From: Candidatus Saccharimonadota bacterium
GTDB lineage: Bacteria; Patescibacteriota; Saccharimonadia; Saccharimonadales; EFPC-124
NCBI GenBank assembly: GCA_016880595.1
Contig: JAEHDC010000015.1
Coordinates: forward strand, 1 to 36,815
Length of the DNA stretch: 36,815 nucleotides
Direction: 5' to 3'
The position numbers and the translations under genes are program-made. Below, piece by piece: positions 7,090-25,582 of this stretch; position 1 is the stretch's first letter, and each line of letters begins with the position of its first letter. The notes beneath the pieces were generated by a model that had not been told where the DNA came from, made no database searches, and worked only from the letters and a program-made list of their open reading frames with translations.

Positions 7090-9069
7090 ATGAGCGAAGC
7101 ACTAGTAACACATATGTCACCGTCTAGTCTGGTGTCGTATTTAACCAACCCGATGTATTTCAGAATGAGGTACATACTGGGGCGACGTGACACTCAGAGT
7201 TCAGTTACCGGCGTAATAGGTAAGGCTGGTCACAAGGCTCTTGAGCGTATCTATTCCGGCATGCCAGTCGATGAGGCCATCAGAGACGGCCAGCGCATGA
7301 TCGACAACATGTTGGACATGGAAATTAAGTACAACAGTACCATCAGCGACCGGGCCAAGCTGATTGCAGGCTATACTCGCGCAATCGGTTTTTATGTCGA
7401 TGAGTTGCCGCAGTATCACAAGATCATCAGCATAGAGGAAGCCATCCAAGAAGAAGCTGAAAGTATGCTGCACCAAGGCACCAATTTGCCCTCACCACTC
7501 AGCGTTCGCCTCGACATGCTTGTTGCTAACCAGCAAAAAGAGCTTGAGGTTATCGACCACAAGTTTGCCTACAATTACACCAACCCTGATGTAGACGACT
7601 TCAAACGCTGGATTCAGGCAATGTTCTACTATTACGCAGTCAAGGCCCGGTACGGCATTGCCCCAGCGCGTATACGATATGAGGAATGCAAGACCTCGAA
7701 GAATAAAGACGGCTCGCCGCAAATCAAAGAGTGGGTGTTTGAGTACGATGACCCTCAACACTTTGCAGTTTTTGAGCGTCTGTTTACCGACGTTATGCTG
7801 GACATGAATAACCCAGGCCGTTTGTTTTTGCCGAATCCTGGCGACATGTTTAACGGCCAAGATATGTTTGAGCTTTACCGACAAGACATTATGCCGATCG
7901 ATGCGCCGGTAGTGATAAAACACCGCACCGAGCAAAAAGAAATAGTTGAAAAACACTACACCGCTAGCGTAGGACAGTCGGCTGACACTTCAAACTACAC
8001 GCCCGAGGAAAAGATACGTGCCAAGCTGCAAGAGTTTGGAATACCTGTTGAGATGCAGGAGACTCACGTAGGCGCATCAGTTACGCAATACACACTCAAG
8101 CCCTCCAGGGGCGTTGCAATGTCAAAGATTGCCAAGGTTGGCAGTGACATAGCTATTGCGCTTGGAGCTAAGTCTGTACGCATTGAGGCGCCCATTCGCG
8201 GCACAACGCTTGTGGGCATCGAAATACCGAGCATTGAACGCAAACGCATTGGCCTTGAAGATAAGCATCTAAAGATGGGTTCACTCAGCGTACCAGTTGG
8301 AGTGAACGTTTACGGCGAATTGGTACGCAAAGACCTTACCGAGATGCCGCACTTGCTAATAGCAGGGGCTACTGGATCGGGTAAATCAGTCATGTTAAAC
8401 ACGCTTATTAAATCGCTTACTAAGCAGATGGCGTCAGACCAAATGCAGCTCGTATTGATTGACCCTAAGCGTGTCGAGTTGGCGGCATTTCGCAGCCTGC
8501 CGCATTTGATGTTTGACGTAATAAGTGAGCCGAGTGAGGCCATAGCAGCCCTCGACATGATGGTTGAGCTTATGGAAGAACGGTACGCACGGCTTGAAGC
8601 TACCGGTCACCGCAGCCTTGAAAGTTACAACGAAGAAGCTAGACAGCGCAAAGCGGCAGAGTTGCCGAAGACGGTCATTGTCATTGACGAGTTTGCAGAC
8701 CTGATGATGAACGGCGGCACTGAAAAGCGTATCACCAAAGTAATCGACGGCTATGGCCCTCGTGGCGGTGAAAAAAGTCACAAAGAGGAAAAGCCAAGCA
8801 TTGAGGCGCAGATTGTACGCATTGCCCAAAAGGCACGTGCGGTCGGTATTCATTTGGTGCTTGCAACGCAGCGGCCAAGTGCGGATGTAGTTACTGGGTT
8901 AATTAAAGCTAACATACCGACCAAGATATGCTTCATGACAACGTCAAAAACGAACAGTCAAATTGTACTGGATCGAGTGGGTGCTGAAGAGCTTACTGGT
9001 AAGGGTGACATGCTGTTTCTTGATCCATCTACTAACGGCATGCAGAGGCTACAAGGCCTTTACTGTTAA
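7090..9069 (+). CDS. PD-(D/E)XK nuclease fused to FtsK/SpoIIIE-type DNA translocase
   Basis: N-term: GKAGHKALE and LSVRLDML..KELEVIDHK (RecB/Cas4-like nuclease motifs). C-term: Walker A GATGSGKS, Walker B VIVIDEFADLM, AQKARAVGIHLVLATQRPSADVVTGLIKANIPTKICF (FtsK motor). Confidence 0.85.
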   Translation: MSEALVTHMSPSSLVSYLTNPMYFRMRYILGRRDTQSSVTGVIGKAGHKALERIYSGMPVDEAIRDGQRMIDNMLDMEIKYNSTISDRAKLIAGYTRAIGFYVDELPQYHKIISIEEAIQEEAESMLHQGTNLPSPLSVRLDMLVANQQKELEVIDHKFAYNYTNPDVDDFKRWIQAMFYYYAVKARYGIAPARIRYEECKTSKNKDGSPQIKEWVFEYDDPQHFAVFERLFTDVMLDMNNPGRLFLPNPGDMFNGQDMFELYRQDIMPIDAPVVIKHRTEQKEIVEKHYTASVGQSADTSNYTPEEKIRAKLQEFGIPVEMQETHVGASVTQYTLKPSRGVAMSKIAKVGSDIAIALGAKSVRIEAPIRGTTLVGIEIPSIERKRIGLEDKHLKMGSLSVPVGVNVYGELVRKDLTEMPHLLIAGATGSGKSVMLNTLIKSLTKQMASDQMQLVLIDPKRVELAAFRSLPHLMFDVISEPSEAIAALDMMVELMEERYARLEATGHRSLESYNEEARQRKAAELPKTVIVIDEFADLMMNGGTEKRITKVIDGYGPRGGEKSHKEEKPSIEAQIVRIAQKARAVGIHLVLATQRPSADVVTGLIKANIPTKICFMTTSKTNSQIVLDRVGAEELTGKGDMLFLDPSTNGMQRLQGLYC

Positions 9070-20698: not shown

Positions 20699-20857
20699 AT
20701 GAGCGAAAAAACCGAAACAGCACCAAAGGTTACGGATAGCAAAGCAGAAGCGCCACTGCAATCTTTTTATTTTCCTGCACAAGATTTGCGCGTGCAGGCA
20801 ATTAGCATGAGCGAAGCGGAGAAAATAGTCAATCAACAGATTAAGGAGGGTAAATAA
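20699..20857 (+). CDS. small phage protein (52 aa)
   Basis: MSEKTETAPK... directly after leader C; ORF track start 20624 lies inside the leader. Confidence 0.55.
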   Translation: MSEKTETAPKVTDSKAEAPLQSFYFPAQDLRVQAISMSEAEKIVNQQIKEGK

Positions 20858-21837
20858 TGGCAGTTTTTAGTGGGCGACGCGTAAATGTTGGTATTGGGCT
20901 CGAGACAACTCGCGGCACGGCCGTCGCGCCGGCTTATTACATCCCAGAGTTAGATGTGAGCATGAGAGACAAGCCTACGTCACTATATGACGAATCCAGC
21001 TTTGGTAACGTCATGAAATCTAGTTCTAAAGCCACTACGCTTATCAACGGAGACGGTTCGATCTCGAGTAATCTTTGGGCAAGAGGTCTTTATTATTGGC
21101 TAGCCTTATTGTTTGGGCAGTTACCGACTACTACTGACGTTTCAGGAGATACGGCTGCAAAAAAACACGCCTTTGCCCTGTTAAACTCCAATGAGCACCT
21201 AAGTGCCACTCTGGCGCTTACGGACCCGAACCAAGATGTGAGGTATCCATTGGCTATGATCGACTCAGTTAAGATCACTTGGGCTGTAGGCGAATCTCCT
21301 AAAATTGAGGTACAAATAATAACTCAAAAGTCAGCTTCTGCCACTAACACAGTAGCCTACGCTGTCGACTCAAAGTTTGTTCCGACTCAGGCAAGCTTTA
21401 AGTTAGCTGATGCACTTAGCGGTTTAGCCGCTGCTAGCGTGCTGGCCGACATTAAGAGTTTTTCTATGGAATTCAAAAAGAACCTATCGCCGCAACAAAC
21501 AGCTGATAGTAGTGATACGTACAGCGGAATCTACAATACTGATTTTGAGGTAAGCGGTAGTATAGAAAAGCTCTATAGAGACACGACGTATAGAGGCTAC
21601 GCCCTGCAAGACACGATAAAGGCCATGGAATTTGCGCTATCTGACAGTCTCAACAAAGCGGGTACGACGACTCCTACGAGTCTTAAGTTCTCGCTAGCGA
21701 AGGTTGCCTTTGAAGATGCAGAGCCAAATTATGGGTTGAGCGACATTTCTACTGAGACGCTAAAGTGGGCAGGTTTAATGAGCTTAACTGAAGCGCCGAT
21801 TACTGCTGAGCTGATCAATAAATACACCTACGTTTAA
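20857..21837 (+). CDS. major tail tube protein
   Basis: 326 aa, position before chaperones/TMP; VNVGIGLETTRGTAVAP.YYIPE..SSNLWARGLYYWLALLFG. Confidence 0.7.
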   Translation: MAVFSGRRVNVGIGLETTRGTAVAPAYYIPELDVSMRDKPTSLYDESSFGNVMKSSSKATTLINGDGSISSNLWARGLYYWLALLFGQLPTTTDVSGDTAAKKHAFALLNSNEHLSATLALTDPNQDVRYPLAMIDSVKITWAVGESPKIEVQIITQKSASATNTVAYAVDSKFVPTQASFKLADALSGLAAASVLADIKSFSMEFKKNLSPQQTADSSDTYSGIYNTDFEVSGSIEKLYRDTTYRGYALQDTIKAMEFALSDSLNKAGTTTPTSLKFSLAKVAFEDAEPNYGLSDISTETLKWAGLMSLTEAPITAELINKYTYV

Positions 21838-21862: not shown

Positions 21863-22231
21863 ATGGCGCAAGAAAATATTACGGTGGAGTTACCTGGTTG
21901 TGGCGGTGAGGCTGTAATTAGGTCTTACATTAAAAATAAGGATCGCAAAGCTATTAGCCGCATGGTTTTTGCTGGTAAAGAATTTAAGCAATCTGAGCTA
22001 GTAGAAGCGAGTAAAAAAGGCGAGGATATTGAGCTAACAATTCCCGGAGTTAACTTAGGAAGCGTTACTAATGAACAAACTCGCCGCTTGCTGATCTCTT
22101 ACGACGGCAATACTAAAGAACCATATGAGGAGATGATGGAGTCGGAGTACAAAGAGGATATGGATGTTGTAGAAAACGTTGTAAGGGCTGTCTTCAGAGA
22201 TCATTCGGAGGATTCAGTTGCAAAAAAATAG
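21863..22231 (+). CDS. tail assembly chaperone (G-like)
   Basis: Between tail tube and TMP; ends at a slippery A7. Confidence 0.7.
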   Translation: MAQENITVELPGCGGEAVIRSYIKNKDRKAISRMVFAGKEFKQSELVEASKKGEDIELTIPGVNLGSVTNEQTRRLLISYDGNTKEPYEEMMESEYKEDMDVVENVVRAVFRDHSEDSVAKK

Positions 22232-22461
22232 ATGGGTGGCACGACCAGTATAAGCGCCACCTCGATGACAATATAGGTCAGGTGCCTACAATTATTGAGC
22301 AGGTGCTGATCATGAAGGAATACGGCTGGACTGACGAAGAATTCGACGACCAACCTGAGGATATAATTTTAGCCATTCGAGTCCGCCGTCAAGTTGAGGC
22401 GGAGCTACGCAAGAAGCAAAATGATGAAATGCAGAGGAGAATACATAGTGCTAAGCATTAA
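21863..22461 (+). CDS. tail assembly chaperone frameshift product (GT-like), -1 at 22222-22228
   Basis: A_AAA_AAA in phase; -1 frame then reads IDGWHDQYKRHLDDNIGQVPTIIEQVLIMKEYGWTDEEFDDQPEDIILAIRVRRQVEAELRKKQNDEMQRRIHSAKH*; stem GGGTGGC/GCCACCT 5 nt downstream. Confidence 0.85.
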
Positions 22462-22498: not shown

Positions 22499-23041
22499 CT
22501 ACTGTAGACTGTCCTCGTCGCCCCCATATACTACGCTGCTGAGCGTAACATCTTTGATGTCGGTGCGAATTTTTGTCAGTATGCCATCATTTTGTAGCTG
22601 CTCGCCAATTTCATTATTAACAAGATTATCCCAATTGTATGCGTTGAATTTGTCCTTGTCGGTGTTAAAGACTAGGATTGGCTGCATAGCAACATCACCT
22701 GTACTATTTTTTACATCAATAGCAAGAGCATATTGGAATGTTGTACAGCTATCATTCTGGAATATTTGCCGCGCGATATTGATGAAATTGGTCGTACCGG
22801 TCTTAAGCACGCTAGCAGTGCTAAAATATTCTGTTTTTTCATCGCTATACGAACAAATACCGCCAATGTTGTTATTGGACTCAATTTGGGCAACGACCTC
22901 AGAGATGCTATTTGTATCTTGTGCGCCCTCTGCCGATGTTTCGTTGCCCTTGAACAAGCTTGATATTCCAAACCATGCAGCAAAGACAACAGTTGCAATC
23001 ACAACAAGACCGACGGCAGTATTTTTACCATTTTCTGACAT
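22499..23041 (-). CDS. single-TM exported protein, reverse-strand moron candidate
   Basis: RBS AGGAGG, upstream TGCTATAAT on the minus strand; N-terminal TM then polar extracytoplasmic domain; opposite to tail genes. Confidence 0.7.
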   Translation of the reverse strand: MSENGKNTAVGLVVIATVVFAAWFGISSLFKGNETSAEGAQDTNSISEVVAQIESNNNIGGICSYSDEKTEYFSTASVLKTGTTNFINIARQIFQNDSCTTFQYALAIDVKNSTGDVAMQPILVFNTDKDKFNAYNWDNLVNNEIGEQLQNDGILTKIRTDIKDVTLSSVVYGGDEDSLQ

Positions 23042-23092: not shown

Positions 23093-25582
23093 ATGAATGA
23101 CAAAGATATAACAATCACCATTAAGGCCAGCGCTAAAGAATTTGCTGCAGCAATGGCGGCCATGCAGTCGCAGGTAAAAAATGCGAGTCAATCAATTAAT
23201 GATAATCTCGAGAGTACTGATCAAGCGACTAGTAGAACTAGTGACCGCTTCTCTAGTATGGGGACCTATATTCAAAGTGCATTAGTAGCTGTGGCGTTAG
23301 CGGCTAGTACTGCCGGCTTAGCATCGATTACGATGGCCGGAAATTTTGAGCAGAGTATGAATGTGCTTAACAGCGTAACTGGAGCATCTGCCGAGCAGAT
23401 GGCTCAGCTTTCTGAGAGGGCGCGCGAGCTAGGTCAGGATATTTCGTTACCGGGAGTGAGCGCTACTGATGCTGCTAGTGCAATGACCGAATTAGCTAAG
23501 GCAAACCTGAGTGTTGATCAAGTGCTTGCTGCGAGCAAGGGTACTCTATCGTTGGCCAAGGCTGGTCAGGTTGACGTTGCATTTGCTGCGCAAACGACGG
23601 CTCAGGCGCTTAATGCATTTGGGCTAGCTGGAGAGGAGGCATCGAGAGTTGCCGATCTGTTGGCAGCAAGTGCCAACTCATCAACATCGGATGTTGAAGG
23701 TATGGCTTTGGGCTTATCGCAGGTTGGCGCTGGCGCAAAAAGTATGGGCGTTAATATACAGGACACGATTACCGCTCTGGCTATGTTCTCTAATGCCGGA
23801 ATAAACGGGTCTGATGCAGGCACATCGCTAAAGACCATGTTCCAGATGTTGGCAAGTCCAACAAAAGAATCGGCCAAGGCGATGAGCGAGCTTGGACTGG
23901 ACTTTTTTGACGCGCAGGGTAACTTTGTTGGCTTAGCGGACACCGCTGAGCAGCTGCAAAATAAACTCGGCAGCTTAACGGTGGAACAAAAGAATGCTGC
24001 TTTAGCTACGATATTTGGTAGTGATTCAAGCCGTGTTGCTGGTATACTCGCGGCACAGGGTGCTGAAGGCTTTGACCAGATGAGTGCTGCGGTCAATAAG
24101 TCTGGCGCTGCACAAGAGTTAGCTGCCGCACAAAATTCGGGCTTCAATGGTGCGCTAGACAACTTAATTAGTACGATAGAGACCGTTGGCACGGATCTTG
24201 GCATTAAGGTATTACCACCTCTTACTGAGTTTCTTAAATTAATGGCAGAACAGCTGCCACCAGCCGTCAACTGGGCTATTGATAATGGGCAAACGTTAGC
24301 GATTGCTGCTGCATCTATTGGCTCTGCTTTTGCCACAATACGTATAGCCGGCACCATTAGTGATTTTGCAAAGGCAAAGAAAACGCTAGACTTGTTTGTT
24401 GGCGAAAAAAATGCAGTGGGCATTAAGGCCATTGGCTCTGCTTTTATGCACGTGGCGAATGGTGCAAAATCAGCCGTAATCTGGATAGGCAAGGGGACGA
24501 TAGAGATTGCTAGTCATGGTGCAGCCGTTGCTGTATCGACCGCCAAGCTTGCCGTACACGCAGTTGCGCAGGGCGCTGTAAGAACGGCGACAGCAGCATG
24601 GACGGCAGCGCAATGGTTGCTGAACGCAGCATTGAACGCGAATCCGCTTACACTAATTATGGTTGGAGTCATGGCGCTAGTGGCAGGACTGGCGTTACTG
24701 TACGCAAACTGCGAGGGATTCCGCAATGCAGTAAATGCTGCGTTCAGCATGGCTTTGGGCGCAATCCAGGCCGTTTGGAATTGGGCGAGCCAAAACTGGC
24801 CTCTGCTGCTAGCGATACTTACCGGTCCAATTGGGCTGGCGGTATTAGCCATTATTCAAAATTGGGAGACCGTCAAAACGGCATTTGCGGCTGCACTACA
24901 GTTTGTTCAAGGAATTTGGGGCGGTGTTGTTGCGTGGTTTGGCAGCGTTTGGAATGGCATTGTTAGCGTGTTTAGCAGTGTAGCGGATTGGTTCGGTAAT
25001 ATTTTTACCAATGCATGGAATGCAGTTATGAATGTTTTTGCTAATATTGGTGAGTTCTTTGGAAGCGTATGGAATACAATTGTTAGTATTTTCTCCAGTG
25101 TCGGTACGGCCATTGGTGATGCTATAGGCGGCTCAGTGCGGGGTGTTGTTAACTCAATCCTAGGTTTTGCTGAAGACACGATTAATGGCTTCATAGGGGC
25201 AATAAATATAGCGGTAGATACGATTAACGACATTCCAGGAGTGACTATTGGGCGGCTTAGCTACTTGGACATTCCGCGACTAGCATCGGGTGGTATAGCT
25301 AATGCTACTAGTGGCGGTCAGTTGGTTACTGTGGCCGAGGGTGGGCAGGATGAGTGGATAATTCCAGAGAGCAAAATGGCATCTGTAGTGCAGCAACTTA
25401 CATCCAGCGCAAGCAAGAACACTAGCGGCAACACTATAACGCAAAATTTTACGGTCAACGTCACAGTAGAAAATGACGGCACTGACTTTACTCAAGAGCA
25501 GGCCGAAAGCATGGGCAGGACAATTGCAATGGTGCTAAGGGCACAGGGATTAGGAGTTAATGAGATGGGGGCGCTTAGATGA
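23093..25582 (+). CDS. tail tape measure protein
   Basis: 829 aa; N-terminal coiled region, long hydrophobic stretches, MSVNIQ-type TP901-like core (SLAKAGQVDVAFAAQTTAQALNAFGLAGEEASRVADLLAASANSS). Confidence 0.92.
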   Translation: MNDKDITITIKASAKEFAAAMAAMQSQVKNASQSINDNLESTDQATSRTSDRFSSMGTYIQSALVAVALAASTAGLASITMAGNFEQSMNVLNSVTGASAEQMAQLSERARELGQDISLPGVSATDAASAMTELAKANLSVDQVLAASKGTLSLAKAGQVDVAFAAQTTAQALNAFGLAGEEASRVADLLAASANSSTSDVEGMALGLSQVGAGAKSMGVNIQDTITALAMFSNAGINGSDAGTSLKTMFQMLASPTKESAKAMSELGLDFFDAQGNFVGLADTAEQLQNKLGSLTVEQKNAALATIFGSDSSRVAGILAAQGAEGFDQMSAAVNKSGAAQELAAAQNSGFNGALDNLISTIETVGTDLGIKVLPPLTEFLKLMAEQLPPAVNWAIDNGQTLAIAAASIGSAFATIRIAGTISDFAKAKKTLDLFVGEKNAVGIKAIGSAFMHVANGAKSAVIWIGKGTIEIASHGAAVAVSTAKLAVHAVAQGAVRTATAAWTAAQWLLNAALNANPLTLIMVGVMALVAGLALLYANCEGFRNAVNAAFSMALGAIQAVWNWASQNWPLLLAILTGPIGLAVLAIIQNWETVKTAFAAALQFVQGIWGGVVAWFGSVWNGIVSVFSSVADWFGNIFTNAWNAVMNVFANIGEFFGSVWNTIVSIFSSVGTAIGDAIGGSVRGVVNSILGFAEDTINGFIGAINIAVDTINDIPGVTIGRLSYLDIPRLASGGIANATSGGQLVTVAEGGQDEWIIPESKMASVVQQLTSSASKNTSGNTITQNFTVNVTVENDGTDFTQEQAESMGRTIAMVLRAQGLGVNEMGALR

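Follow-up and report, generated by a model that had tools for sequence, protein, structure and literature searches.

This locus raises the question of whether seven consecutive A residues at the end of a small phage gene allow a second, longer protein to be made by a shift into the -1 frame, as in the G/GT tail assembly chaperone of phage lambda. The DNA analysed (the window, 36,815 nucleotides) is the whole of contig C63 of a 0.95-Mb assembly. We estimate a probability of roughly 0.88 that these two genes encode a tail assembly chaperone of the lambda G/GT type, with GT produced by a ribosomal -1 slip at A_AAA_AAA. This reading, already proposed in the initial annotation, is supported by the anatomy of the site, by the homology of G and T and the conservation of their frames, and by the selection acting on the frame of T in two related loci. 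The features that matter for the argument are listed here with their positions in the window.

20857-21837, + strand: major tail tube protein, 326 aa (PF18906, Phage_tube_2, E 1.4e-18; PHROG 290, E 3.3e-26)
21863-22231, + strand: G, tail assembly chaperone, zero-frame product of 122 aa (profile of relatives' G proteins; fold matches)
22207-22212, + strand: internal Shine-Dalgarno (SD)-like GGAGGA, probable stimulator, 9 nt 5' of the slip site (anti-SD duplex)
22222-22228, + strand: slippery heptamer A_AAA_AAA, a run of exactly seven A immediately 5' of TAG
22228-22461, + strand: T domain, read in the -1 frame (77 aa and the TAA stop) and predicted to be made as a 199-aa GT fusion (profile match to the -1 products of relatives; four-helix prediction)
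22234-22262, + strand: 3' stem-loop, probable stimulator (arms 22234-22240 and 22256-22262)
22499-23041, - strand: probable moron of 180 aa, membrane-anchored at its N terminus; it separates GT from the tape measure gene and lies outside the frameshift
23093-25582, + strand: tape measure protein, 829 aa (PF10145, PhageMin_Tail, E 1.1e-51; PHROG 1272, E 2.9e-82)

The frameshift anatomy that had been described for positions 22222-22262 is correct at base resolution. Bases 22220-22231 (GCAAAAAAATAG) read GCA AAA AAA TAG relative to the ATG at 21863, and the heptamer is in the phase required for a -1 slip, abutting the TAG of this ORF. The -1 frame opens upstream at 22129, overlaps the G frame by 33 codons, and continues from 22228 (ATA) through 77 open codons to the TAA at 22459-22461; a second ORF therefore overlaps G in the -1 frame with a slippery site in phase. 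The statement that this ORF has no independent long start is nearly right, yet a GTG at 22282 would begin an ORF of 59 aa, a length that falls just below the 60-aa listing threshold.

The heptamer by itself is weak evidence, as 3.9% of codon shuffles of G produce an in-phase A7 within the last 36 codons. The genes of the window (~7300 codons) contain 25 in-phase heptamers, and A_AAA_AAA at 22222-22228 is the only one of the 25 at which the -1 frame passes the stop of the gene. The strong evidence for a G/GT pair is the homology of the predicted -1 product.

Querying viral_contigs, the phage records and 382 genomes of the phylum directly with the G-GT fusion protein brought up no relatives. Scans with the tube protein or the tape measure protein alone were likewise unsuccessful, and a Pfam search of G and T gave no match. 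The family was reached through the tail tube neighbour, which led to a locus from the same host order (L007), then to 25 loci and then to 80 viral loci. The first loci were selected for a heptamer plus a -1 extension; the later survey instead searched the three frames of the plus strand with the T profile. Against a T profile from other loci, the -1 frame of the window scores E 2.3e-10 (best of 1000 shuffles, 0.46), and its G scores E 1.7e-6 against a profile of relatives' G proteins (best shuffle, 0.15).

Kinship with known chaperones is seen in the T of L007, which matches the PHROG 9001 tail assembly chaperone with E 3e-12, and in the fold matches of G. The T of another relative, L025, matches PHROG 9001 with E 3e-5, whereas the T of the window is too divergent to pass alone and gives a weak match (E 0.05, residues 141-194 of GT). 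AlphaFold predicts four helices for T (mean pLDDT 91.6) and a small alpha-beta fold for G (pLDDT 82). The predicted G fold retrieves tail assembly chaperones from the BFVD viral fold library, the best of them with E 1.8e-3 as the second-best match overall and others more weakly; a PDB fold search with T returned no useful match.

The T-profile survey detected T in 85 loci. Nineteen loci lack T, six of which end at most 50 bases from the tube gene, and six more contain T with no overlapping G by the criteria used. Once loci had been merged at 80% DNA identity, 57 independent clusters in which G and T overlap remained. T lies in the -1 frame relative to G in 56 of the 57, the -1 candidate having been taken in the handful of loci with two possible G ORFs. 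The one exception (+1/-2) is L041, which carries an A10 tract; L077 was rejected as a second instance, as the two are one sequence. The initial annotation had named homologues with a degraded -1 ORF as the observation that would speak against its proposal. The frame arrangement is conserved, and the substitution pattern in a close pair, L022 and L027 (87% DNA identity), indicates purifying selection on the T frame. Third positions of the -1 frame account for 20 of the 30 substitutions in the T region, and 15 codons differ synonymously versus eight nonsynonymously. With the PHROG 9001 matches of the relatives and the homology of the -1 product, these observations strongly support the G/GT chaperone reading.

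Two putative stimulators flank the slip site. The upstream GGAGGA had been missed by the first analysis; when 20-nt stretches of the gene are compared, its anti-SD duplex (-9.5 kcal/mol) ranks in the strongest 3-4%. The 7-bp stem reported downstream (GGGTGGC/GCCACCT, 5 nt past the heptamer) is real, with seven pairs, one of them G-U. The stem-loop folds with -12.5 kcal/mol (z -2.15), and with 8 of 200 shuffles folding as well it is only moderately better than shuffled sequence. The window thus has an SD-like sequence about 10 nt upstream and a stem downstream, as in signals of the dnaX/IS911 type, the role of both as stimulators being putative. Across the family, the SD-like sequence is not conserved, and the 3' stem is not shared among relatives as sequence or as structure.

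The slip sites of the 57 clusters fall into distinct classes. Canonical heptamers without long runs are found in 25 clusters, which supports a ribosomal step, and runs of A9 (15 clusters) or A10 (seven clusters) in 22; L022 and L025 are examples of A9 relatives. A7 occurs in only two clusters, the window and L091. In the remaining eight clusters (L043, L045, L062, L080, L081, L084, L106 and L108), T is again in the -1 frame, but the overlap lacks a canonical heptamer. Among the 24 A-tract clusters, 22 therefore have A9 or A10, and neither A8 nor a run longer than A10 was seen at any slip site of the 57 clusters. The term textbook, as applied to this frameshift by the initial annotation, is apt for the window; for most A-tract relatives, with their A9 or A10 runs, polymerase slippage is a live alternative.

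Under this alternative, RNA polymerase would insert an extra A at the run, and normal translation would then read from G into T. As an explanation of the window we consider it improbable, and it is the rival that survives best. Runs as long as those at the A9/A10 sites are rare elsewhere in the same loci: only three of 207 off-site A/T runs of at least seven reach nine (Fisher p 2e-25 versus the slip sites). When codons were redrawn from the usage of each locus with the G peptide kept, about seven of 22 were expected to reach nine, a figure that is a guide and no clean test because the class is itself defined by run length. The 3' structure is also weaker at A9+ than at heptamer sites (mean z -0.35 versus -1.41, p 0.002; GC-matched p 0.003), while SD strength does not differ between the two classes. 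Slippage at nine A is efficient for a bacterial polymerase (PMC5009743), and the A10 tract of L041 accompanies a +1/-2 shift, although this case may be a run-length error given that L041 and L077 are one sequence. Together, the rarity of A9/A10 elsewhere and the weaker 3' structure suggest, short of proof, that the A9/A10 relatives slip by transcriptional slippage. The ancestral step, too, could be transcriptional, since most A-tract relatives have A9 or A10 and not A7.

Several observations argue against polymerase slippage, most directly for the window. Transcriptional slippage calls for about nine or more A/T, a length reached in the 22 related clusters, whereas the run of the window is A7 and is accompanied by an SD-like sequence and a stem; these point to the ribosome. 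Its 3' fold (mean z -1.7) and SD (top 4%) are features in common with the canonical-heptamer clusters. In nearly half of the family the site is a heptamer with no long run, and longer runs could simply raise slipping by the ribosome. The direction is -1 in 21 of the 22 A9+ clusters, and a conserved direction is read in PMC3711429 as a sign of ribosomal shifting; lengthening of a run in place would likewise preserve the direction. Counting against the main reading, A_AAA_AAA promotes shifting less strongly in E. coli than A_AAA_AAG does (PMC5009743). On balance, the window fits ribosomal frameshifting. For the family as a whole, we give somewhat less than even odds to the possibility that it alternates between ribosomal -1 slippage at short heptamers with 3' structure and polymerase slippage at A9/A10 without it, the window with its A7 belonging to the ribosomal group or falling in between. 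Literature searches, with incomplete coverage, brought up no tail chaperone whose expression depends on polymerase slippage, so that this absence does not establish novelty.

It is very unlikely that T is a separate small protein with no fusion to G, whether translated after reinitiation or started at the internal GTG (22282; 59 aa). That GTG does lie in the -1 frame, and in L041 and in phage Sonali a start codon or a separately annotated gene is present in or near the T frame. However, no start codon of the -1 frame lies at a usable distance from GGAGGA, the region of homology begins upstream of the GTG (the alignment starts at T residue 6; the GTG is residue 19), and most relatives have slippery sites in the overlap. 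The break lies inside a homopolymer, which prompts the notion that a single gene has been split into two frames, either by mutation or by a sequencing error in the run. This has next to no probability and is refuted by the family-wide conservation of the frame change from G to T, which recurs in 57 independent clusters, many of them without long homopolymers, and by the selection on the T frame.

In the ribosomal G/GT reading, most ribosomes would terminate at the TAG at 22229 and release G (122 aa). A minority, with tRNA-Lys on the AAA AAA of the heptamer, would slip back by one base, helped by the upstream GGAGGA and the downstream stem-loop, and would produce GT (199 aa). By analogy with lambda, G would coat the tape measure protein and the T domain would recruit tail tube subunits, both G and GT departing before the tail is completed. 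We infer the slippage itself, its ribosomal nature and its efficiency, as well as these binding roles of G and T. The peptide AKKIDGWHDQYK, which had been proposed as a diagnostic, would be lost in a tryptic digest because trypsin cleaves K-K.

The claim that the pair is positioned between tube and tape measure as in lambda holds insofar as genes with PF18906 and PF10145 flank it, but a minus-strand gene precedes the tape measure gene. This unrelated membrane protein gene breaks the strict lambda order and counts against the main reading. Ahead of its ATG it has its own extended -10 (TGCTATAAT, 23076-23068) and an SD (AGGAGGT, 23054-23048), its product matches nothing in Pfam or PHROG, and it is probably a moron. 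HK97 gp15 is a predicted inner-membrane exclusion protein (PMC10883804). This superinfection exclusion moron and the product of 22499-23041 are both small membrane proteins of long-tailed phages, a likeness that is a lead only, no sequence similarity having been found between the two.

Comparison of L027 (6479-7573) with L022 (6479-6729) reveals a natural insertion of ~0.85 kb between T and the tape measure gene, at the same position as the moron of the window. The insertion has a GC content of 34% versus 44%, and encodes a minus-strand membrane protein with weak similarity to a PHROG superinfection-exclusion family (E 5e-5) and another ORF. Reverse-strand genes for secreted or membrane proteins also lie beside the chaperone genes of two phages of the same host order (L007, 5889-6338; L008, 5741-6232; both - strand). 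An insertion hotspot beside the tail chaperone genes is possible. Elsewhere in the window, a 659-aa ORF (7090-9069, + strand) resembles, by eye only, a RecB/Cas4-type nuclease fused to an FtsK-like ATPase.

The frameshift device is already well known from other phages, and the part worth following is the family-wide preference for A9/A10. On good homology evidence, the present analysis brings a poorly characterised prophage, from a bacterial lineage with reduced genomes, within the range of the G/GT device, and it retrieves a protein of 199 aa overlooked by ORF callers. The family comes largely from environmental phage contigs and from prophages of bacteria with reduced genomes. Its survey poses a testable question: does expression of the same chaperone depend on slipping ribosomes in some phages and on a slipping polymerase in their relatives?

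The -1 signals of E. coli dnaX and IS911 consist of an internal SD, an A-rich heptamer and a downstream stem. With its GGAGGA, heptamer and stem, the window has the same three-part layout, but its heptamer ends in A and not G, the gene is unrelated, and the stem is simple and modest. Stimulators of -1 frameshift signals are discussed in PMC5009743. Transcriptional slippage in Thermus thermophilus dnaX works at nine A/T (PMC5009743), the length found in many of the relatives, whereas the run of the window is seven. In reporter cassettes of another gene, frameshifting was 10% at A7, 40% at A9 and 63% at A11 (PMC3711429). The closest parallel is lambda G/GT. The window differs from it in its site, an A_AAA_AAA directly before the stop with an SD-like sequence and a stem, in the absence of a Pfam match for G and T, and in the reverse-strand membrane protein gene before the tape measure gene. 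What the two systems have in common is the order of tube, G, -1-frame T and tape measure, a shift near the 3' end of G, and two products from one start (PMC5009743).
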